From NCBI RefSeq assembly GCF_900176355.1, contig NZ_FWXI01000004.1, forward strand, positions 124,001 through 188,000: a stretch of DNA of 64,000 nt, written 5' to 3'. The DNA comes from Sporomusa malonica (GTDB lineage Bacteria > Bacillota > Negativicutes > Sporomusales > Sporomusaceae). The translations under genes and the position numbers were made by a program. Every line of letters begins with the position of its first letter. The stretch's first letter is position 1. Under the pieces are notes generated by a model. The model ran no database searches and was not told the DNA's origin. It worked only from the letters and a program-made list of their open reading frames with translations. Below are positions 5,518 through 33,826 of this stretch, piece by piece.

Positions 5518-6864
5518 TCATCGCTTATGCCTTTGCTGTAGCCGAATCAGTCTGGTGAGCAGCACTCCCGCCCCTACAGCCAAGCCTGCGATAAAGCCTA
5601 CCCAATAGCCATATGCCTGTAGTTCAGTAAACTTAGCAAGGAAATAGCCTATTGGCATACCAATAACCCAATAGGACAGGACTGCCATGAGAAAAGTCAC
5701 CTTAACATCCTTATACCCCCGCAGCGCCCCTTGAATAGGAGCAGCAATAGCATCAGACAGCTGGAAAAAGACAGCATATACCAGGAAGTTTTGGATGAGT
5801 TCCAATACATCTGCCTCTTGGGTATAAAGACCGGCAATTTGACTGTTAAACACAGATAAGCCGATCGCAAAAAAGACCGCAATCACAATCGCAAGCGCAA
5901 TACCAAGCTTACTATATTGCCTGGCATCACTATACCGGCGCGCACCGACCTCGAAACCAATGACAATTGTCAATGTCATCCCGATGCTGAGCGGCACCAT
6001 ATAGACTAAACCGGCAAAATTGATAGCTGCCTGATGGGCGGCTATAACAGCAGTTCCATATTCAGCCATCAGCAAGGCAACGACACCAAAGATGCTGACT
6101 TCGCAAAATATTGACAGGCCAATTGGCAAACCAACAATAAGCAGTTCCCGCCAGGTTCTAAGCGAAATTGAAGCAAAACAGCCAAACACTTTATAATCCT
6201 TAAAAGGCTTTAAATAATGAATAACTCCTATGCTGATCAGGGCAAGACACCAGTAGGTTATAGCAGAGGCATACCCGGCTCCCACCCCACCAAGACGGGG
6301 AAAACCCAAATTTCCAAGAATCAGCAGATAGTTTAGCGCAATATTAATCGGTACTGCACAAAGCGTGATCAGCATGGTTATTCGCGTATAGCCCAGCGCA
6401 TCAATAAAATTCCGCAAAACTCCAGAGACAAACAAGGGTAAAATCCCTATTGCCAGTGCAATCAAAAACTGATAGGCAATGTCATGGACAGCTGGTTCCA
6501 GGGTCATGAGGTTTAGTATTGGGGCAAGCACTACTGAACCTCCGCCAATAACAATGAGGGCCAGCGCCATAGATATATATATACTTTGTATTACCAAGAA
6601 CGGCATATCCTTTTTCCGCCCGGCCCCATTAAGCTGGGCAAGAATGGGCGTCATGCCGGCAAGAACTCCACCAATGCCCGTGAAAATAGGCATCCACAGA
6701 TTTGCCCCAATAGCAACTCCGGCTAAATCGTAGTGGCTCACTTGGCCTGACATCACTGTATCAAAAAAGCCTGTCGCCATCAGTGAAATTTGGGTAACAA
6801 ATATCGGCGAAAAAATTATAAAGAATTGCCGCGCTTTCTCCTGCAATGAACCGGTTTTTCTCAC
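5518..6864 (-). CDS. MATE family efflux transporter (DinF/NorM-like)
   Basis: An integral membrane protein of about 448 residues with twelve hydrophobic segments. The N-terminal half has the MATE pattern (PIFVTQISLMATGFFDTVMSGQ, shown here in part as FFDTVMSGQ). MATE pumps use Na+ or H+ gradients to export cationic drugs and metabolites. A TTG at 6876 is possible, but GTG at 6864 has GAGG 6 bases upstream and is preferred. It lies 65 bases after the stop of the upstream unknown gene, with a hairpin terminator between them, so it may have its own promoter. Confidence 0.88.
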   Translation of the reverse strand: MRKTGSLQEKARQFFIIFSPIFVTQISLMATGFFDTVMSGQVSHYDLAGVAIGANLWMPIFTGIGGVLAGMTPILAQLNGAGRKKDMPFLVIQSIYISMALALIVIGGGSVVLAPILNLMTLEPAVHDIAYQFLIALAIGILPLFVSGVLRNFIDALGYTRITMLITLCAVPINIALNYLLILGNLGFPRLGGVGAGYASAITYWCLALISIGVIHYLKPFKDYKVFGCFASISLRTWRELLIVGLPIGLSIFCEVSIFGVVALLMAEYGTAVIAAHQAAINFAGLVYMVPLSIGMTLTIVIGFEVGARRYSDARQYSKLGIALAIVIAVFFAIGLSVFNSQIAGLYTQEADVLELIQNFLVYAVFFQLSDAIAAPIQGALRGYKDVKVTFLMAVLSYWVIGMPIGYFLAKFTELQAYGYWVGFIAGLAVGAGVLLTRLIRLQQRHKR

Positions 6865-6879
6865 TTGGCACCTCAAACT

Positions 6880-20227: not shown

Positions 20228-21913
20228 ATGAGTCAATCGCCTTTTTATGATGTCCCAGAGCTAGCAACCTTACAAGATTTAGTTAGTTACTGCGCCAGCA
20301 AGTACGGTGATAAGACAGCCTTTAAATTAAAAGATGGTAAAGCTGTCATTAGCTATTCATACCAAGATCTACATCGAGACACAATGTCTTTTGGCGACAT
20401 GATGCGCCACCTAGACGCTGATGGCAAACACATCGCCGTTGTCGGTGCAACAAGCTACGAGTGGATTGTGACGTATTTAGGCTCTGTAAACGCTGGTAGT
20501 GTCATTGTACCTATCGATAAGGAATTGCCACTTGACGGAATCTGTGACTTGTTGGCCAGAAGTCAGGCCATGTGTTTATTTTTTGATAAGCATCTGGAAA
20601 AACATATCAGCGAAATCGCCAGCCAGGTTCCTGGAATCAAGTATTTCATCGCTATGCACCATCGAGATGATGACGGCAATATCTTGTCCTTTTGGCAAAA
20701 CATCAAAAGATACTGGGGTAACATCTCCAGCAGTAAGCCTGCCCTCATTGGCCCTGATACGATGGCGGCCATCCTGTTTACCTCTGGAACAACCGGTACC
20801 AGCAAAGGCGTTATGCTCAGCCATAGAAACATTATGAGCAGCACACTAGCTGGAGCTGCTGCAATCCAGCTTGACAGCAACCACATTGCCCTCTCTATTT
20901 TACCCATTCATCATACCTTTGAGTTTGGCATGGGCATACTTTGCTCCATGCTGTTCGGCGTGACCATTTGCATCAATGACAGCCTGAAAAACCTGTCCAA
21001 GAACTTCCGTCTCTTTCAACCAACAATGCTTGTGGCTGTGCCGCTAGTCCTCGAAACTATGCTTAAGCAAATCTGGTTTGAGGCCGAACGCAAAGGAAAA
21101 GCCAGGACGTTAGCCTTGCTGCTTACACTAAGCAACTTGCTGCTGAAACTGGGAATTGATGTAAGACGCAAGCTATTTGCCGAAGTACTTGCTGCCTTTG
21201 GCGGACGGCTTGCTGTTATCTTTTATGGCGGAGCCTACTCGCCCCCCACGCTGGTTAAAGAGTTTAATGCTTTCGGAATTAAACTAATCCAAGGCTATGG
21301 CATAACCGAATGCTCACCGCTTGTTGCCACCAACATCGACCGGCAGGTCAAAGCTGATTCTGTGGGCAGAATCGCCTCCTGCTGCCAGGTTAGGATTGAT
21401 GACCCAGACGAAAAAGGCGACGGGGAAATACTGGTTAAGGGCCCTAATGTCATGCTTGGCTACTATAATAATCAAGCAGCTACTGCCGAAACCTTCACTG
21501 GTGATTGGTTTAGAACAGGTGATTTAGGGCACTTGGACAGTGACAATTTCCTGTATATTAGCGGCAGAATAAAGAACCTGATTGTCTTAAAGAACGGGAA
21601 AAATGTTTCTCCTGAAGAAATTGAAGGATATTTTCAAGCTATCTCCTATATCAAGGAACTAGTAGTTTACGCCAAAGAAACAGCCACTGGGGATGAACTG
21701 GCTCTCTTAGCCGAAATTTATCCAGACCAAGACGTCCGAATAAGTATGACTGAAGACGCATTTAAGCAAAAGCTGACTGCTGATATTGAAGCAATCAACC
21801 GAAAATTGCCCATATATAAGCAAGTAAGCGATTTTATTCTGCGCGATACTGAGTTTGAGAAAACCACTACCAAAAAAATCAAGCGGTTTACAGTAAAAAA
21901 AGGGGGTAATTAA
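20228..21913 (+). CDS. AMP-dependent acyl ligase (long-chain acyl-CoA/acyl-ACP synthetase family)
   Basis: A 561-residue ANL-superfamily enzyme that adenylates a carboxylic acid and transfers it to a thiol. Motifs: AAILFTSGTTGTSKGVMLSH near residues 178-197 (P-loop), IQGYGITECSPL near 357, and WFRTGDLGHLD followed by GRIKNLIVLKNGKNVSPEEI near 430-465. A C-terminal Lys-rich segment (TTTKKIKRF) carries the candidate catalytic lysine. An ACP gene starts 1 base after its stop, so the acyl acceptor is probably that ACP rather than CoA. The acid is unknown. It is the first gene of the atypical 20-27.7 kb block. Confidence 0.9.
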   Translation: MSQSPFYDVPELATLQDLVSYCASKYGDKTAFKLKDGKAVISYSYQDLHRDTMSFGDMMRHLDADGKHIAVVGATSYEWIVTYLGSVNAGSVIVPIDKELPLDGICDLLARSQAMCLFFDKHLEKHISEIASQVPGIKYFIAMHHRDDDGNILSFWQNIKRYWGNISSSKPALIGPDTMAAILFTSGTTGTSKGVMLSHRNIMSSTLAGAAAIQLDSNHIALSILPIHHTFEFGMGILCSMLFGVTICINDSLKNLSKNFRLFQPTMLVAVPLVLETMLKQIWFEAERKGKARTLALLLTLSNLLLKLGIDVRRKLFAEVLAAFGGRLAVIFYGGAYSPPTLVKEFNAFGIKLIQGYGITECSPLVATNIDRQVKADSVGRIASCCQVRIDDPDEKGDGEILVKGPNVMLGYYNNQAATAETFTGDWFRTGDLGHLDSDNFLYISGRIKNLIVLKNGKNVSPEEIEGYFQAISYIKELVVYAKETATGDELALLAEIYPDQDVRISMTEDAFKQKLTADIEAINRKLPIYKQVSDFILRDTEFEKTTTKKIKRFTVKKGGN

Positions 21914-21914
21914 C

Positions 21915-22148
21915 ATGTTTGAACAAGTACGGGATATTATCGCCACCTATAAGCGAATTGATCCCAAATCAGTCACTATGGATTCGGCCCTGGTCAAGGA
22001 TTTGGGCCTAAGTTCTCTCGACCTTGTCAGCCTTGTGTCAATTTTCGAAGATACGTTTGACTTTGAGCTGGATGAAGAAGCTATTCCAAAAATCAGCAAA
22101 GTCGCCGACATTGTTCAACTTTTGGAAGAAGCACTAGAAAACAACTAG
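21915..22148 (+). CDS. Acyl carrier protein (stand-alone)
   Basis: A 77-residue acidic four-helix carrier protein. The phosphopantetheine serine is Ser34 in KDLGLSSLDLVSL; the usual DSL motif reads SSL here. It follows the acyl ligase gene without a real gap (GGGGG ribosome site inside the ligase 3-prime end). No fatty-acid synthase genes are near, so it is a dedicated carrier loaded by the neighbouring ligase rather than the housekeeping AcpP. Confidence 0.92.
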   Translation: MFEQVRDIIATYKRIDPKSVTMDSALVKDLGLSSLDLVSLVSIFEDTFDFELDEEAIPKISKVADIVQLLEEALENN

Positions 22149-22156
22149 CGAAAAAG

Positions 22157-23539
22157 TTATGAACTCTCTTTTCCCAGTCTGGAGACAATTGATTTTGTCT
22201 GCCATATGCCGCTTCTATAGCGCAACCAGAGGCCGATAGTGCCGGGAACCCACATGAACGGCTGCGACCACCAGATGCATTGATAACCAATCTGCGGTAT
22301 CACAGCCATCATGTAGGCGGCCGCAATACGCAGCACAAAAATAACAAGCGTACCAACAGTGCTAAACATAACATCACCACTGCCTCTGAGGACACCCGCA
22401 AGAATATTGGTAACAAACACAAAGGCAAAGAAGAATCCGGTTACCGCAAGGTATTGCTGTCCTTGCAGCATAACTTGCTCTGCCATCGCCATATTAGTGG
22501 TATCTGAACTGAGGAATATACCAATAATGCTTTCGCCGAAAACAATAACCAGGCCGCTGCAAAGCACACCGAGGATGCTCCCCATCATTAGGATACGCTT
22601 TACCCCTCTTTCTACCCTGTCAATGTTGCCTGCGCCTATATTCTGCCCGGTAAAAATACCCATGGCCCGGCTAAGATTTAGTGAAATCTGGCTAACTATC
22701 TGTTCGACCCGGAAAGCCACGCTGACAGCAGCGATCGTAACCTCGCCAAAGCTGTTAACAAGGCCCTGCAACGCCAAACCACCCATACCAAGAAATCCTT
22801 GCTGGAGGGCGTTAGGGACACCCTGCGCTAGAGCCATAGATAACAGTATTCTGTCAAAGGTAACCTCACTTAGCTGGATCCGGTAGACAGGCACCTTTAT
22901 GTAGGTATAGACAATCATCATCAGGCTTGCCACACCTTGGGCAATAAAGGTTGACCATGCTGCTCCGGCAACACCCAAACCCCATTCTTTGACAAAGAGC
23001 ACTGCCAACGCAACATTAATCAGCGAAGATATGATTAAGAAATACACTGGCGTCCTGGAGTCTCCCACCGAGCGCAAGAGAAAAGACACCGCATTATAAA
23101 GAAAAACAAATACTAGACCGCCAAAATAAATCTGCAAAAAGACTGTCGCATCTCCAATAATTGTTTCAGGAACTCTGAGCAGTTGTGTTAGTATTGGTTT
23201 TGCCGCAGCTACTCCACCTGCTGATAGGACAAGGCACATCGCAATAAGCGCCAAGAAAGTAGAAAATACGGTATTGCGCAATTCCACTATACGCTTGGCA
23301 CCGAAAAGCTGGGTAACAACAATGGCCATACCAGAGGCAAACCCATTCATGACTACCACTACAAAAAAGATGATTGGCATACTTGTTCCCACAGCAGCAA
23401 GAGCATGGGCCCCGATATATTTGCCGACAATCACGCTATCAATCAAACTATAGACCTGCTGAAAAAAACTACCAATAAACATCGGAATGGTAAACGTAAT
23501 AATCTGTTTTGTCTCATTTCCTTTAGTAAAATCCTGCAT
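22157..23539 (-). CDS. MATE family efflux transporter
   Basis: A 460-residue, twelve-helix MATE pump, unrelated in detail to the MATE at 5518. It begins MQDFTKGNETKQIITF and has FQQVYSLIDSVIVGKYIG in helix 1-2, typical of the bacterial NorM/DinF branch. ATG at 23539 has GAGGTG 4 bases upstream; the longer frame to 23578 is less likely. Its gene converges on the ACP gene (8-base gap) and diverges from the ATPase/GNAT gene, so it sits inside the acyl/amide cluster and could export the product. That link is inference. Confidence 0.88.
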   Translation of the reverse strand: MQDFTKGNETKQIITFTIPMFIGSFFQQVYSLIDSVIVGKYIGAHALAAVGTSMPIIFFVVVVMNGFASGMAIVVTQLFGAKRIVELRNTVFSTFLALIAMCLVLSAGGVAAAKPILTQLLRVPETIIGDATVFLQIYFGGLVFVFLYNAVSFLLRSVGDSRTPVYFLIISSLINVALAVLFVKEWGLGVAGAAWSTFIAQGVASLMMIVYTYIKVPVYRIQLSEVTFDRILLSMALAQGVPNALQQGFLGMGGLALQGLVNSFGEVTIAAVSVAFRVEQIVSQISLNLSRAMGIFTGQNIGAGNIDRVERGVKRILMMGSILGVLCSGLVIVFGESIIGIFLSSDTTNMAMAEQVMLQGQQYLAVTGFFFAFVFVTNILAGVLRGSGDVMFSTVGTLVIFVLRIAAAYMMAVIPQIGYQCIWWSQPFMWVPGTIGLWLRYRSGIWQTKSIVSRLGKESS

Positions 23540-23637
23540 AGCACACCTCAAGGTTCTACTCATCTTTGCCCATTCCATTCTTATTGCACATATACAGGCA
23601 AAATCCTGCTTAGCCGTTACATAATGGAGGATATGTT

Positions 23638-25119
23638 ATGGATATTAGCTGCAGTCCGGAAGTTTCCCTGGCACTGCCCTATAAATCGGAATTTCTCAAC
23701 CTAATCACCAGTTTTGTAACTGAAACTGGACAAGCGTTTGGCGCAAACGAAAAAGAGGCTTTTGCGCTACGTCTGGCTGCTGAAGAAATCTTTGCCTACA
23801 TTATGGAGGCATTTCCCGCTTCAGAAAAAGACGCTGTTTTTCATTTGAAATGCATGGCTGAAACGGACGGCGTTACATTTAGCTTTAGCAACCATGGCAC
23901 GCCGCTTAACGCCCGGTCAACACCGGATTTTACTGTAGACGACATTGAATCGACCATTGCCGGCCTAGGTCTTAGCCTTGTCCAAAAGGTTACAGATAAC
24001 TGCCAGTTTGTTAACTGCGGCAGTGACGGGTGGCTGATCGTCTTTACCAAGCGCCTTGTCGATTTTCATCCAATACTCGCTGGTGAACAACCTAACCCAG
24101 CAAGCGATGCAGCCTCGCCTGCAAACCAGAAGCTGCGCGTATACCGCGCTACCGCGGATCATGTCCCCAGCCTAATTAACCTAGTTTATCGCACCTACCG
24201 TTATTCCTACGCCAAAAGCTACTTTTATGATGATCACAGCCTAAAACAAGCCCTTGAGGAGGAACGCGTTGTTGCCCTAGTGGCCGAGAATGAGCAAGGC
24301 AATATTGTTGGCAACACAGCCGCCTTTTTCGATTCACCGCATGTTGCCGAAATTGGCGGTGTCATGATTGACCCCGAGTATCGTTCCAGTATGGGGATGC
24401 TGCTCTTAGTGAAAGAATCGAAAAAACTCTTTGGCGGCAATTCCTTTAACGACACCCTCTTTTATGCCAGAACAGTCACCACTCACACCTACTCCCAACA
24501 GCTAATGTCTGCCCTCAGATTTGCCCCCCTGGGCCTGCGTCTGTCAGTATATGGTCATGCCAAATTCATCGGCATCGAAGAACACCAGGGGAATCGGGAA
24601 AGCTTGGTTTTTGCCATACTCACCGCCAATCAACAGAACAAGCTGCTCGAAATCTATGCACCACTGTCACATAAAGAGATGATCGGTGAGCTTTTTGCCA
24701 ATACGCCGCTTACTACTACGGTACAGTGCGCTGAGGAAAACACTCTACCGGCCACGCCAACAACACTGACGGTTTCACCCAATGAAAAAGCTCAGTTTGC
24801 CGAAATCTATATTGACGAATTCGGGCAAGACTTTTCGGCTATCTTGAAAAAAGAAACCTTTCAACTGCAGCAGGACGGCTATCTGACCTGCCTTCTTAAT
24901 ATCCCTGCCGATAAACCACAGCCTGCCGACTTAGACAATATGCTAAAAGCAAACAAATTCTTCTTCAGCGGCTTACAGCTGAATAAGCAAGGCCAGTGGC
25001 AGCTAATGTATACTAATCTCTTTCATCAGCGCTTTCAGTTTGCCAATGTCAAACTCTATGACCTGCTAGCCCTGAAATTGCGCGACTATATCGAAGATCA
25101 ATATCTAAGCATCTATTAA
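23638..25119 (+). CDS. HATPase-like / GNAT fusion protein
   Basis: A 493-residue protein. Residues about 1-145 resemble the anti-sigma-factor-type HATPase fold (LRLAAEEIFAYIMEA near 45; GLGLSLVQKVTDNC near 108), although the usual N-box Asn is not obvious. Residues about 165-325 form a GNAT acetyltransferase domain (LRVYRATADHVPSLINLVYR; GGVMIDPEYRSSMGMLLLV). The rest (about 330-493) looks like a second, diverged GNAT-like or mixed domain. GGAGG lies 7 bases before the ATG. The next gene, the ATP-grasp/GH3 fusion, starts 17 bases downstream with its own AGGAGGT. The function is unknown; acyl transfer with nucleotide-controlled regulation is one reading. Confidence 0.75.
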   Translation: MDISCSPEVSLALPYKSEFLNLITSFVTETGQAFGANEKEAFALRLAAEEIFAYIMEAFPASEKDAVFHLKCMAETDGVTFSFSNHGTPLNARSTPDFTVDDIESTIAGLGLSLVQKVTDNCQFVNCGSDGWLIVFTKRLVDFHPILAGEQPNPASDAASPANQKLRVYRATADHVPSLINLVYRTYRYSYAKSYFYDDHSLKQALEEERVVALVAENEQGNIVGNTAAFFDSPHVAEIGGVMIDPEYRSSMGMLLLVKESKKLFGGNSFNDTLFYARTVTTHTYSQQLMSALRFAPLGLRLSVYGHAKFIGIEEHQGNRESLVFAILTANQQNKLLEIYAPLSHKEMIGELFANTPLTTTVQCAEENTLPATPTTLTVSPNEKAQFAEIYIDEFGQDFSAILKKETFQLQQDGYLTCLLNIPADKPQPADLDNMLKANKFFFSGLQLNKQGQWQLMYTNLFHQRFQFANVKLYDLLALKLRDYIEDQYLSIY

Positions 25120-25135
25120 CTACAGGAGGTATACC

Positions 25136-27703
25136 ATGTACGGCTGGATATTACATGACAATACCGAAATACACGAGATTAAACGGGCAGCTGATGAGGC
25201 AGCCAAAGCCAACGTGACCATTGAACTGGTTTATCCTAAAGACATTGACTTGATACTGGATAACACAAATAGCGGCGCAGTCTATGTAAAGGGTGTGAAG
25301 AAACAGCTGCCTGAGTTTGCTTTGGCCGCCTTTCTTGCTGAAGTAGACTATTATAACCTGGCCGTCCTGCGTCAGCTTGACGCTTTAGGCGTGCTATGTA
25401 TCAATACTGCCGATGCTTTGCTAAAATCAGGTGACAAGCTAGTAACATCGCAAATTTTGTTGCAAAAAGGAATTCCGGTCGCTAAAACAGCCTTACTGCG
25501 TCCTGGCAGTGACTTAAAGACCATTGAACGTGAATTTGGCTTACCACTAGTGGTTAAAGTGCTGCGCGGCAGCAAAGGAAAAGGCGTTCTGCTGATCAAT
25601 ACGCTGGGTGAGCTCAAAAACTTAGTTGAACTTTATGAAGCTGGCGGTTTTAGGGATGAGGTGCTTATTCAAGAGTATATTGCTACCACCAAGGGCAGAG
25701 ACCTGCGGGTATTTGTTTGTGGCGGCAAGGCCTTAGGCTGCTTCATGCGTCAAAACGCTGGTGATGGTTTTAAATCTAATATATCTGGCGGCGGGCACGG
25801 TAGCACCCACCCCCTTACTGACGAAATCAAGAATCTGGCCGAACTGGTGGCCCAAACCCTCGGACTCAACATCGGCGGCATTGATCTGCTCTTTGGCCCT
25901 AACGGCTTTATCGTCGGTGAGGCTAACTCACTTCCCGGTTTCCAAGGTCTAGAAGCCGCAACCGGGATGAATATTCCGGGGATGATTTTACGCAGTATTG
26001 CCGCACAGTTGGCATCCCGCCCGGCAGCCCGGTGGCGGATTCAGCAGGTGCTGGCTGAATCCCAGACAATACCACTGCCTCAAGTACTGCTTAGTCTGCC
26101 CAAAACCGTACTACCTGGAGTAGTCCGTTCACTGTTTAGCTCTTGCCCTGAGAGCCAGCAGACTGTGTTATTAGAGATGGTCAACCGCTGTCAGAATACT
26201 GAATTCGGCAAAAATCATAACTTCGCTGCCATCAAATCCATCGAGGATTTCCGTAACCATGTCCCCATTTCCAGTTGGCCTGACTATGAGGCCTACGCCG
26301 AGCGCTTGGCCAATGGCGAGGAAAACATCCTCTTCCCTGGCAAAGCAGAATACTTTATTACCAGCTCTGGTACTTCCTCCAATAAACCAAAAATGATTCC
26401 CGAAAGTACCGCTGGAGCTGCAGCCAAAAAAGCCATATCGGCAGTCCGGCGTTTAGTGACCTTTTCTCTATTTCCTAACTTAACAAAATTGGGGCATTTC
26501 CTGGCCTTATCTAACGCTGCTGCCAATTCAGTAACCCCTGCTGGCATTCCGGTGGGCTTTGCTTCAGGAATAACCCGCTCCCAAGCTGATGCTACCCTGG
26601 CAGCACTTGATGCTTATCCGCCGGAAATCATGGATATTACTGATAGCGAGAGCGTCGATTATCTCATTATGCGGTTTGCCCTATTACATAAAGATATGAT
26701 GGCCATTGTCGGCAACAATGCCGGGCGCATGCGGGTACTGGCCGAATATGCTCAAAAACACGCCCAAGAGTTAATTGACGATATTGCTGCCGGCACTATC
26801 AGCCAGCGTCTGCCAATCTCGCCTGATATCCGTAAGCTGCTGGAAGAAAAGCTGAATCCTGCACCGGAAAGGGCTGCCGAACTCCGTCAAATCCTCGAAG
26901 CTGAGGGAGGCGCGTTTCTTCCCAAAGACTATTGGCCGCACCTTATGATCGCCACCTTCTGGCTGGCAAGCACTGTAGGTACTTATGTTGACGATGTTCG
27001 TCCCCTTCTCGGCCCTAAGGTTACCTATTTGGATGTGGGCTATGGCTCCAGCGAGGTTAAAATAAATATCCCGTTAAAACCGAACGAGCCCTGTGCTCCC
27101 CTGGCGCCCTTCATCGCCTTCTTCGAGTTTTTGCCAGTCACAGGCGGTGAGCCGCTCTTGGCCCATGAGCTAAAAGACGGCGAAATCTATGAATTGATCG
27201 TCACAACCTATTCCGGACTGTACCGCTACAACATGCAAGATCTTATTAAAGTAGGCGGTTTTACCGGCAATACCCCCAATATTGAATTTGTCAGCAAAAG
27301 CACTGAAATTGCCAATATTGCGGATGAAAAAATCCCAGGCTCTGACCTCAATCAGTGTATCCGGGAAATAGCCGCCTCCATGGGCCTACCCTTACGCCAG
27401 TGCCAAATGTCCCCTGACCAAACAAGCAGGCAGTATGTTTTCCTAGCTGAACCGGAGACCCATACTGTGGATTTCCCTGTTGAACAACTCATCACAGAGT
27501 TTGATGAGGCTATGAAAAAAAAGCACTTCGGTTATTCGCTATTTCGTAACCAGCAACTGCTTAATCTGCCTACGCTGCGCCTAATGAAACAAGGCTGGCA
27601 GGAACACCTCTACCAGCAGAGGCTTAAGCCTGGTGTAACAATCGCACAGATTAAGCTGCCGTTTATTGTTAAAACTCTACCTGATTCGACCTGGTTTGTA
27701 TAA
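25136..27703 (+). CDS. ATP-grasp (RimK-like) / GH3 acyl-acid amido synthetase fusion
   Basis: A large two-enzyme protein of 855 residues. Residues about 1-295 form a RimK/LysX-type ATP-grasp ligase: VVKVLRGSKGKGVLLIN near 138, then GIDLLFGPNGFIVGEANSLPG ending near 267 (the family acid and Asn metal ligands, close to RimK NSSPGLEGIE). Residues about 320-855 form a GH3 domain: CQNTEFGKNHNF, the adenylation loop ITSSGTSSNKPKMIP near 407, and TTYSGLYRYNMQDLIKVGG further on. ATP-grasp enzymes make amide bonds through acyl phosphates; GH3 enzymes through acyl adenylates. The fusion therefore has two separate amide-forming activities. No characterised protein with this order is known to me. Substrates cannot be inferred. 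Confidence 0.85.
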   Translation: MYGWILHDNTEIHEIKRAADEAAKANVTIELVYPKDIDLILDNTNSGAVYVKGVKKQLPEFALAAFLAEVDYYNLAVLRQLDALGVLCINTADALLKSGDKLVTSQILLQKGIPVAKTALLRPGSDLKTIEREFGLPLVVKVLRGSKGKGVLLINTLGELKNLVELYEAGGFRDEVLIQEYIATTKGRDLRVFVCGGKALGCFMRQNAGDGFKSNISGGGHGSTHPLTDEIKNLAELVAQTLGLNIGGIDLLFGPNGFIVGEANSLPGFQGLEAATGMNIPGMILRSIAAQLASRPAARWRIQQVLAESQTIPLPQVLLSLPKTVLPGVVRSLFSSCPESQQTVLLEMVNRCQNTEFGKNHNFAAIKSIEDFRNHVPISSWPDYEAYAERLANGEENILFPGKAEYFITSSGTSSNKPKMIPESTAGAAAKKAISAVRRLVTFSLFPNLTKLGHFLALSNAAANSVTPAGIPVGFASGITRSQADATLAALDAYPPEIMDITDSESVDYLIMRFALLHKDMMAIVGNNAGRMRVLAEYAQKHAQELIDDIAAGTISQRLPISPDIRKLLEEKLNPAPERAAELRQILEAEGGAFLPKDYWPHLMIATFWLASTVGTYVDDVRPLLGPKVTYLDVGYGSSEVKINIPLKPNEPCAPLAPFIAFFEFLPVTGGEPLLAHELKDGEIYELIVTTYSGLYRYNMQDLIKVGGFTGNTPNIEFVSKSTEIANIADEKIPGSDLNQCIREIAASMGLPLRQCQMSPDQTSRQYVFLAEPETHTVDFPVEQLITEFDEAMKKKHFGYSLFRNQQLLNLPTLRLMKQGWQEHLYQQRLKPGVTIAQIKLPFIVKTLPDSTWFV

Positions 27704-27780
27704 AAAGCGACCTGCTTCACCGGGGTATGTCCACCCGTTGAACTGCACTCTGAAGCAGGCAGCACAATAAAAATAGTTTA

Positions 27781-27824
27781 AGCAGCCTTAGTTCGAACAT
27801 TCCATCGGACTGAGGCTGTTTTTC
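27781..27824 (+). terminator. Rho-independent terminator after the ATP-grasp/GH3 gene
   Basis: GCAGCCTTAGT pairs with ACTGAGGCTGT around a 16-base loop, followed by TTTTT. A second, longer-looped repeat (CCTGCTTCA at 27710-27718, TGAAGCAGG at 27751-27759) lies just before it. Confidence 0.65.
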
Positions 27825-33082: not shown

Positions 33083-33826
33083 CTACCCTTTTGGTTTAAC
33101 CGGTAGCCCCTGGTGATATAACATGACTTCCCGGTCTGTCATTACTTTCGCAGTAATCCTCAATACCACTGACACGTCAAATTTCCGGGTGCAGCGGCGC
33201 GGTTTTTTATGTGGTTTACAATGATGCTCACATTCAGGTTCGCATTTAGGCTTGCACTTATGTTTTTTAGGCGGCTTATGTTTATGATCACAGTCATCAT
33301 CATAATCGTCGTCATCGTAATCGCAATCGCAGTCGTAATCATCATAATCGTCGTCACAATCATCATCGTAGTCATCGTAATCATGGCCTTTTTTCTTATG
33401 CCAGTGAGCGCGAGTATGTTCATCACAATCATAATCCACAAACTCGACCATAACACTGGCGTCAGCCTCCATACCCCGCCGCGCCCCTCTGATATCAGCA
33501 AAAGCAGTAAACCGGATAGGCCATACTTCAACAGCATGCACAGGCTGCCTTGGCCGGCAGGCAACATATAAAGCCTTAACCTCAAATTCGCCTCTGACAA
33601 TTACTTTATTGGGAATAACATCCACGCTGGTAATGTGCAGCTTTTTAACAAAAACATCTACAATTTGCTCAATACCTGGTTTTCGCGGCGGAACGACCAC
33701 ATGAATATCAATCGATTTTTGAACCTCCCGTGCACCCAGCACCTGCTGTACAACAATCGATTTAGGGCCGGTACTAGACCCCGCCGTGCAATAATTGGGC
33801 CGATCCCATGGTTCTATATGTGTCAT
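33083..33826 (-). CDS. SPOCS (DUF3794)-domain protein with Asp/Tyr/Cys-rich insert
   Basis: A 247-residue protein with a SPOCS-like beta-rich domain (about 20-135: KSIVVQQVLGAREVQKSID, VIPNKVIVRGEFEVKALYVA). A remarkable low-complexity segment follows. Residues about 148-180 are almost only Asp, Tyr and Cys (GHDYDDYDDDCDDDYDDYDC). Residues about 182-215 are Lys/His/Pro/Cys-rich (HKHKPPKKHKCKPKCEPECE). The C-terminus returns to SPOCS-like sequence (RKFDVSVVLRITAKVMTDRE). SPOCS domains occur in spore-coat or cortex-associated proteins, and the insert could bind metal or Ca2+. No signal peptide. Start is ATG at 33826 with a GGGGGG stretch upstream. Confidence 0.75.
   Translation of the reverse strand: MTHIEPWDRPNYCTAGSSTGPKSIVVQQVLGAREVQKSIDIHVVVPPRKPGIEQIVDVFVKKLHITSVDVIPNKVIVRGEFEVKALYVACRPRQPVHAVEVWPIRFTAFADIRGARRGMEADASVMVEFVDYDCDEHTRAHWHKKKGHDYDDYDDDCDDDYDDYDCDCDYDDDDYDDDCDHKHKPPKKHKCKPKCEPECEHHCKPHKKPRRCTRKFDVSVVLRITAKVMTDREVMLYHQGLPVKPKG

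Follow-up and report, generated by a model that had tools for sequence, protein, structure and literature searches.

The 64,000-nucleotide stretch of Sporomusa malonica DNA analyzed here (the window; contig NZ_FWXI01000004.1, positions 124,001 to 188,000, forward strand) carries a compact block of five genes, three of which constitute one conserved module. These three, referred to as the trio, encode a MATE family exporter, a fusion of a HATPase-like and a GNAT-like domain (HG, whose GNAT-like domain is called GNATx), and a fusion of a RimK-type ATP-grasp domain with a GH3 domain (RimK-GH3). The trio is tentatively proposed, with somewhat less than even confidence, to make and export a small amide, either an N-acyl amino acid or a short pseudopeptide, independently of non-ribosomal peptide synthetases (NRPSs) and polyketide synthases (PKSs). 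The substrates, the order of the reactions, the dependence on an acyl carrier protein (ACP), and the export of the product are all putative.

A conserved three-gene module

The three genes are inherited together. Among 28 genomes of the order, a full-length RimK-GH3 (E ≤ 1e-15) occurs only in the window genome (G000) and in G107, with a 90-residue C-terminal GH3 fragment in the 58%-complete genome G139, and the MATE at E ≤ 1e-80 is found in exactly the same two genomes. The G107 copy of the MATE is 71% identical and lies beside the same genes; the trio members are again neighbors there, with HG and RimK-GH3 swapped and the MATE gene diverging from GH3 instead of HG. Chance adjacency was rejected on this conservation in rearranged order, and the fact that the genes have stayed linked through a change of order points to a common function of the trio. 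Between the two genomes, the proportion of nonsynonymous differences (pN) in the trio genes is 0.18–0.29 against 0.76–0.83 for synonymous differences (pS), the silent sites being saturated or nearly so, and pN is well below pS for each domain as well. A close HG gene is present in four of 300 genomes of the class, namely, the window genome and three others at 46–53% identity; RimK-GH3 is found in two of these four and the ligase of the block in one. The co-occurrence by which the initial annotation had suggested judging the block therefore holds in one direction, as HG and MATE are present in both genomes with a full-length RimK-GH3, but RimK-GH3 accompanies HG in only two of four.

The five genes and their spacing, as first described, were confirmed by open reading frame (ORF), Pfam, and NCBIfam checks. 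One base separates the ligase stop (..21913) from the ACP start (21915); ACP and MATE are convergent with a gap of 8 bases, MATE and HG are divergent with a gap of 59 bases, and HG is followed by RimK-GH3 after 16 bases that include AGGAGG, which we take to be a ribosome-binding-site-like sequence. The features are as follows:

20228..21913, plus strand: AMP-forming acyl ligase, 561 aa (Pfam, motifs; accessory)
21915..22148, plus strand: small ACP, 77 aa (Pfam)
22157..23578, minus strand: MATE family exporter, 473 aa (Pfam, family model)
23579..23637, no strand: divergent intergenic region MATE/HG, 59 bases (sequence)
23638..25119, plus strand: HG, HATPase-like/GNAT-like fusion, 493 aa (Pfam, homologues)
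23638..24057, plus strand: HATPase_c_2-like domain, residues 1–140 (Pfam, alignment)
24085..25116, plus strand: GNATx domain, residues 150–493 (family alignment)
25120..25135, plus strand: spacer with AGGAGG, 16 bases, before RimK-GH3 (sequence)
25136..27703, plus strand: RimK-type ATP-grasp/GH3 fusion, 855 aa (Pfam, NCBIfam, PDB profile matches)
25136..26011, plus strand: RimK-like alpha-L-glutamate-ligase-type ATP-grasp domain, residues 1–292 (Pfam, TIGR00768)
26126..27700, plus strand: GH3 amido-synthetase-like domain, residues 331–855 (Pfam, motifs)
27780..27821, plus strand: terminator-like hairpin of 17 pairs after GH3 (pattern match only)

The role of the last feature as a terminator is only suggestive, since shuffled sequence gives 11.6 (sd 3.7) such hairpin patterns and the region itself 17. 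The MATE protein matches Pfam MatE at 168 bits, passes the TIGR00797 family cut-off (187.9 against 147.4 bits), and would export the product.

The RimK-GH3 fusion

Pfam recognizes both halves of the fusion, RimK with 117.3 bits and GH3 (PF03321) with 213.1 bits, the latter together with GH3_M and GH3_C. The RimK half resembles the RimK family alpha-L-glutamate ligases in that it passes the TIGR00768 family cut-off (189.6 against 143.4 bits) and keeps the ligand region GGIDLLF...GEANSLPG intact, the D, E, and N of which are presumably Mg/ATP ligands, and it differs from them in being fused to GH3. It matches glutamate ligases of known structure with E values down to 1e-39, fails the ribosomal S6--glutamate ligase equivalog (136.2 against 331), and falls below the cut-off of every equivalog matched; as the domain is fused to GH3, its acceptor is probably a small molecule. 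The GH3 half is homologous to the plant indole-3-acetic acid- and jasmonic acid-amido synthetases GH3.5, GH3.6, JAR1, and GH3.12 (E 4e-26 to 2e-31) and shares their motifs, with TSSGTS, YGSSE, and GLYRY..QD as the nucleotide motifs in the window; the G107 copy keeps the nucleotide and metal motifs with small changes, e.g., SSGTT and YGASE. The plant enzymes differ in using plant acids as substrates and in having no fused ATP-grasp in the aligned chains.

In the proposed pathway, the GH3 half would adenylate a fatty, aryl, or short-chain acid and couple it to an amine, and the RimK half would add an amino acid, possibly Glu, via an acyl-phosphate. Since the two halves are fused, one polypeptide could form two amide bonds. 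Amide synthesis of this kind is already known from the E-64 pathway, in which an ATP-grasp enzyme (Cp1B) is followed by an amide bond synthetase (Cp1D), so that, in the excerpted account, two amide bonds are made without an NRPS by one ATP-grasp enzyme and one adenylate-forming synthetase (PMC12568646). According to the same excerpt, the E-64 system is fungal and consists of separate proteins, its synthetase belongs to the ANL family, and its ATP-grasp enzyme is without detectable identity to characterized ones (PMC12568646); in the window, by contrast, RimK and GH3 form one polypeptide beside GNATx and MATE. No RimK-GH3 fusion was found outside the genus of the window in the genomes searched, in which the best few candidates per genome were scored (three or two for the fusion, four for the ligase), and a genome-collection scan, which reaches close relatives only, returned three relatives of GH3 without a fused RimK. 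Searches of the open-licence literature yielded no description of RimK and GH3 as a single polypeptide together with a GNAT-like/HATPase fusion and a pump. NRPS-independent amide synthesis as such is not novel; it is the combination of RimK-GH3 with a fusion of a GNAT-like and a dead HATPase domain and with a pump for which these searches gave no precedent.

The GH3 half may also be read as part of a membrane aminolipid pathway, in which it would attach a fatty acid to the amino group of an amino acid, the product would stay in the envelope, and the MATE would serve as a flippase; this is considered improbable. The model of that reading is OlsH, a bacterial GH3 domain with nucleotide motifs, for which the excerpted source shows that it forms an amide with an amino acid, producing N-acyl ornithine with free fatty acid and ATP as inputs (PMC12493201). 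OlsH is the sole GH3-type NCBIfam model matched (E 2e-15), and the MATE has a weak match to the MurJ flippase (25.7 bits, cut-off 27.4). Nevertheless, the OlsH score of 56.4 bits compares with an NF052613 cut-off of 620, neither an OlsI-like alpha/beta hydrolase nor OlsG is present among the eight scanned proteins of the block and its surroundings, and the OlsH pathway has no place for a RimK half. As described in the excerpt, OlsH works in an OlsH-OlsG-OlsI operon (PMC12493201), whereas the window protein carries a RimK domain. An identification of the window protein as OlsH itself was rejected, its score being far below the cut-off and the operon partners not being found among those eight proteins.

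The degenerate HATPase-like domain of HG

The N-terminal domain of HG matches HATPase_c_2 with 33.9 bits (Pfam cut-off 27.4), a fold-level match to the RsbW/SpoIIAB-type kinases. In an alignment of 30 domains, the N-box Asn and the G1-box Asp, which are assumed here to be the ATP-site residues of HATPase_c_2-type domains, are both present in all eight standalone HATPase relatives; HG of the window has Tyr at the former position and Asn at the latter. The same Tyr replaces the N-box Asn in HG of G107 (L064), G074 (L065), and G016 (L066), with Asn or Tyr for the G1 Asp across the four proteins, while the domain in L069 and L070 keeps the N-box Asn and has Glu at the G1 position. Both residues are missing in six of six H430-type HATPase-GNATx proteins; they are kept in five of 10 MATE-HATPase fusions and not in the other five. 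The domain had been called ATPase-like in the initial annotation; with key ATP-site residues replaced, it is probably neither an ATPase nor a kinase. Its identity between the window and G107 is 60%, compared with 51.5% for the GNATx half, and this stronger conservation suggests that it is kept for something besides ordinary ATP chemistry. It may be a degenerate, conserved domain for partner binding or structure.

The GNATx domain and its genomic context

GNATx comprises the C-terminal 344 residues of HG and belongs to a family of approximately 340 residues in length, of which 31 members were aligned. The Acetyltransf_1 match of the full HG is 20.2 bits, just below the cut-off of 20.7, and that of the C-terminal part alone is 20.8 bits; PF00583 is matched at E ≤ 0.01 by 15 of the 31 members, and the N-terminal half of the family weakly matches GNAT structures (best E 3e-05, PDB profile search). 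The acetyl-CoA loop motif of GNATs is R/QxxGxG/A, and none of the 31 members has R or Q in its first position, with K found there in one. The domain, first assigned as GNAT, is called GNAT-like here and lacks the acetyl-CoA motif. In bacteria, acyl-ACP is the donor for N-acyl amino acid synthases, according to the excerpted source (PMC8762209). The proposed role of GNATx is akin to that of FeeM and TyzA, which are described in the excerpts as acyltransferases using acyl thioesters, FeeM with ACP and TyzA as tested with coenzyme A (PMC8762209; PMC10404671). Unlike the FeeM type, GNATx has a length of approximately 340 aa, a conserved C-terminal half of its own, and, here, a degenerate HATPase domain. 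GNATx would acylate an amino group on the product of RimK-GH3, the acyl donor probably being an ACP thioester.

The neighborhoods of GNATx were counted in 28 loci hand-picked from the best hits, excluding L171, which duplicates the window; HG-type hits outside this wide-flank set are G079:C14, G131:C34, two in G051, and G054:C39. Because several loci come from sister species (L158, L166, and L168; L165 and L172), the counts overstate independence. Within 5 kb of GNATx, MATE is found in 12 of 28 loci, ACP in 10, ketosynthase III in nine, AMP-ligase in six (two of them self-fusions and one the NRPS of L164), and HATPase in 15, six of which are fused in HG by construction, as the query contained that domain. 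In 20 arbitrary 20-kb stretches, drawn from GH3 genomes and not from GNATx genomes, the corresponding numbers are two, zero, zero, one, and zero, respectively. The hidden Markov models (HMMs) used for the neighborhoods were seeded from the window and some of the fetched loci, in which hits are by construction, and the key labels were checked by Pfam. The ACP seeds were the window, L153, L155, L157, and L158, and those of ketosynthase III were L079, L155, L157, and L158; ACPs beyond the seed loci are found in L154, L156, L163, L166, and L168. The ACP gene lies 0–40 bases from GNATx in seven loci, while that of the window is 1490 bases from HG with the MATE gene between them.

GNATx also occurs in direct association with acid-activating enzymes. 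Two GNATx-AMP-ligase fusions are encoded in G022 (L154:9241-11847, 868 aa; L155:15032-17629, 865 aa), the latter directly beside a MATE gene; Pfam recognizes AMP-binding in both and the GNAT half in L155, that of L154 being assigned with a self-built HMM. In L164, GNATx is paired with a 2488-residue NRPS having condensation, AMP-binding, and carrier domains. H430 aligns to HG over nearly its full length (hhalign probability 99.4%, from shallow alignments), which suggests that the HATPase-GNATx fusion is an old architecture, and a MATE gene lies in the stretch in nine of 16 fetched HG or H430 loci (HG two of eight; H430 seven of eight). The window genome contains a second such cluster, L068 (G000:C22:40500-60000), which encodes STAS, HATPase, GNATx, MATE, ThiF, H430, a HisC-like aminotransferase scoring above the cut-off of its model, and the large, iron-sulphur, and flavin subunits of a molybdenum hydroxylase. 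Outside the class but within the phylum, L199 and L200 contain MATE, the large hydroxylase subunit (by Pfam in L199), GNATx, a HisC-like protein, and H430. Sets related to L068 are seen in L153, L157, L199, and L200. In the TyzA/TyzB system, a ThiF homologue cyclizes N-acyl tyrosine, as reported in the excerpt (PMC10404671), and the ThiF protein that likewise stands beside GNATx in L068 would fit a role of the GNATx family at large in N-acyl amino acid chemistry.

HG might instead be a regulator, the HATPase-like half binding a partner of the STAS or sigma type and the GNAT-like half acylating proteins so as to control the neighboring enzymes, but this is thought to be quite unlikely. HATPase_c_2 is a kinase fold of the anti-sigma type, the products of related clusters include STAS, SpoIIE phosphatase, and standalone HATPases in which the ATP-site residues are intact, and HG precedes a chemotaxis-type operon in L066. 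Against this stand the loss of the ATP-site residues in HG of the window, L064, L065, and L066 and the lack of any STAS or SpoIIE gene in the window by self-built HMMs. The fusion of GNATx to AMP-ligases and its close spacing to ACP genes point to metabolism and thus against a regulator. For the amide pathway favored here, the succession of GNAT, ATP-grasp, and GH3 steps and export put forward in the initial annotation fits the intact RimK and GH3 motifs, the MATE, and the context of GNATx, with the chemistry itself remaining a prediction.

The ligase and ACP genes

The ligase matches Pfam AMP-binding with 226.7 bits and contains the adenylation motifs TSGTTG, YGITE, TGDLG, and a C-terminal KKIKR, while the ACP matches PP-binding with 35.6 bits, with Ser34 in LGLSSLD as the candidate phosphopantetheine site. 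In this genome, the two may supply acyl-ACP to GNATx. All five genes had initially been read as one amide pathway; that reading is partly supported, namely for the co-inherited trio, whereas the distribution of the ligase-ACP pair places it outside the conserved core as an accessory of this genome, and it looks like a recent or mobile neighbor. It is regarded as an accessory addition because G107 has no equally close ligase.

It is also nearly an even possibility that the pair is an unrelated two-gene unit beside the MATE end, which is compatible with the function proposed for the trio. None of the 11 further genomes of the family, G107 included, has a ligase at E ≤ 1e-60, nor do 299 other genomes of the class have one at E ≤ 1e-75 (up to four candidates scored per genome). 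Matches at E ≤ 1e-60 occur in seven of 347 other genomes of the phylum, with 32–40% identity and again up to four candidates per genome, and seven neighborhoods were fetched from five of these. Because the pair converges on MATE, it does not share a transcript with the trio, and in G107 no ACP is detected by a self-built HMM in the 1,063 bases beyond MATE, where the contig ends. An ACP adjoins the ligase in two of the seven fetched neighborhoods, L184, next to an NRPS, and L185, on a contig of 5.7 kb, both without MATE, GNATx, or GH3. On the other side, GNATx and MATE do have other ligases and ACPs alongside elsewhere, and in one of the seven neighborhoods, L183, a related ligase (38% identical to that of the window) adjoins a MATE gene (33%). 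The NRPS next to the related ligase-ACP pair in L184 (L184:13760-19900) carries a terminal reductase domain.

In the 64-kb window as a whole, self-built HMMs detected no ketosynthase III, no other PKS or NRPS search having been made, and no adenylating enzymes other than the ligase and the GH3 gene. A second, weaker MATE-like protein (5518-6876, minus strand; E 1e-16, self-built HMM) is distant from the block, and a protein at 33083-33826 (minus strand) has a long low-complexity stretch rich in Asp, Tyr, Cys, His, and Lys.

GH3 genes in other genomes and the weighing of the function

Fusions of a GT2 glycosyltransferase with GH3 occur in some genomes of the class at nine loci, two genomes contributing two each. 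A MATE-HATPase_c_2 fusion lies beside GT2-GH3 in five of them (L072, L074, L075, L076, and L126; Pfam-checked in L076), several of which also have a STAS-APH or APH-like gene. In a Ruminococcus metagenome-assembled genome, the gene row of L081:1-10258 is ATP-grasp, MATE, GH3, SpoIIE phosphatase, HATPase, phosphopantetheinyl transferase, and carrier protein; the C-terminal HATPase-like part of this MATE is recognized by a seeded HMM only, Pfam giving no HATPase hit there at E ≤ 0.001. In the GH3 tree (28 rows), RimK-GH3 and GT2-GH3 form separate groups with support of 100/99 and 100/100, respectively, and L081 sits on a long branch of unsure place. The nearest relatives of the window GH3 in the tree are the two tandem GH3 genes of L113, next to which are four tandem look-alike proteins of approximately 700 residues (L113:535-9137, G525).

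Several observations weigh against the proposed amide pathway. The full trio is present in two genomes of one genus only, and HG occurs without RimK-GH3 in G074, beside an amidohydrolase gene on a short contig (L065), and in G016, ahead of the chemotaxis-type operon of L066 (CheR by Pfam, the remaining genes by inspection). A single-sequence AlphaFold2 model of HG has a mean predicted local distance difference test score (pLDDT) of 34.6, unusable for fold comparison, and FeeM (2G0B) is not among the 52 PDB sequences retrieved by the GNATx profile at E ≤ 1. Five of the 28 GNATx loci (L078 and L159–L162) are without MATE, ligase, ACP, ketosynthase III, and HATPase within 5 kb, and four more (L065, L066, L069, and L070) have the fused HATPase only. 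The ligase is unique to the window genome within the class sample, and the ligase-ACP pair may be unrelated. Four of the nine GT2-GH3 loci (L071, L073, L077 on a short contig, and L127) have no MATE-HATPase neighbor, and none of 13 loci with standalone GH3s from other families (L113–L125, some of them short stretches) has MATE or HATPase, nor do L131, L082, and L083. A universal GH3-MATE-HATPase link was accordingly rejected on the 13 standalone loci; it holds for some lineages only.

In three standalone loci, GH3 lies between MarR and MFS genes (L115:8640-11957, L116:2631-5954, and L117:7893-11224), and it is found with PadR and MFS in L118 and with MFS alone in L123 (Pfam). The MarR-GH3-MFS sets are likely inducible conjugation-and-efflux units, and as exporters beside GH3 are not rare, detoxification is the main alternative for the trio: GH3 and RimK would couple amino acids to a harmful acid, in the manner of plant GH3s acting on hormones, and the resulting conjugate would leave through the MATE, no product being made as an end in itself. 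MATE pumps are commonly multidrug pumps, which is in keeping with such a role. The alternative is nonetheless judged rather unlikely, as the eight scanned proteins of the block and its surroundings include no MarR or PadR; the RimK fusion, the GNATx fusion, and the ligase-ACP pair exceed the needs of detoxification; and the relatives of GNATx sit with ketosynthase III and ACP in the numbers given above.

Implications

Beyond the biosynthesis and export of an amide by the trio, a wider and more doubtful proposal is that the trio represents an unrecognized class of anaerobe pathways on a fixed chassis, MATE plus a GNATx tied to a dead HATPase domain. The acid-activating parts of this class would vary, being RimK-GH3 here and AMP-ligase or ketosynthase III with ACP elsewhere; others, including L068, would have a molybdenum hydroxylase and an aminotransferase, with ThiF in one, and one GNATx/H430 locus has an NRPS and no MATE gene. 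If this were true, small exported acyl amides would be missed by standard cluster finders, and GNATx, MATE, and the degenerate HATPase would provide a handle for finding overlooked small-molecule clusters in anaerobes. If the function proposed for RimK-GH3 is correct, a compact enzyme forming two amides would be useful in biocatalysis. The trio also raises the question of why an anti-sigma-type domain without the usual ATP-site residues is conserved in such clusters.

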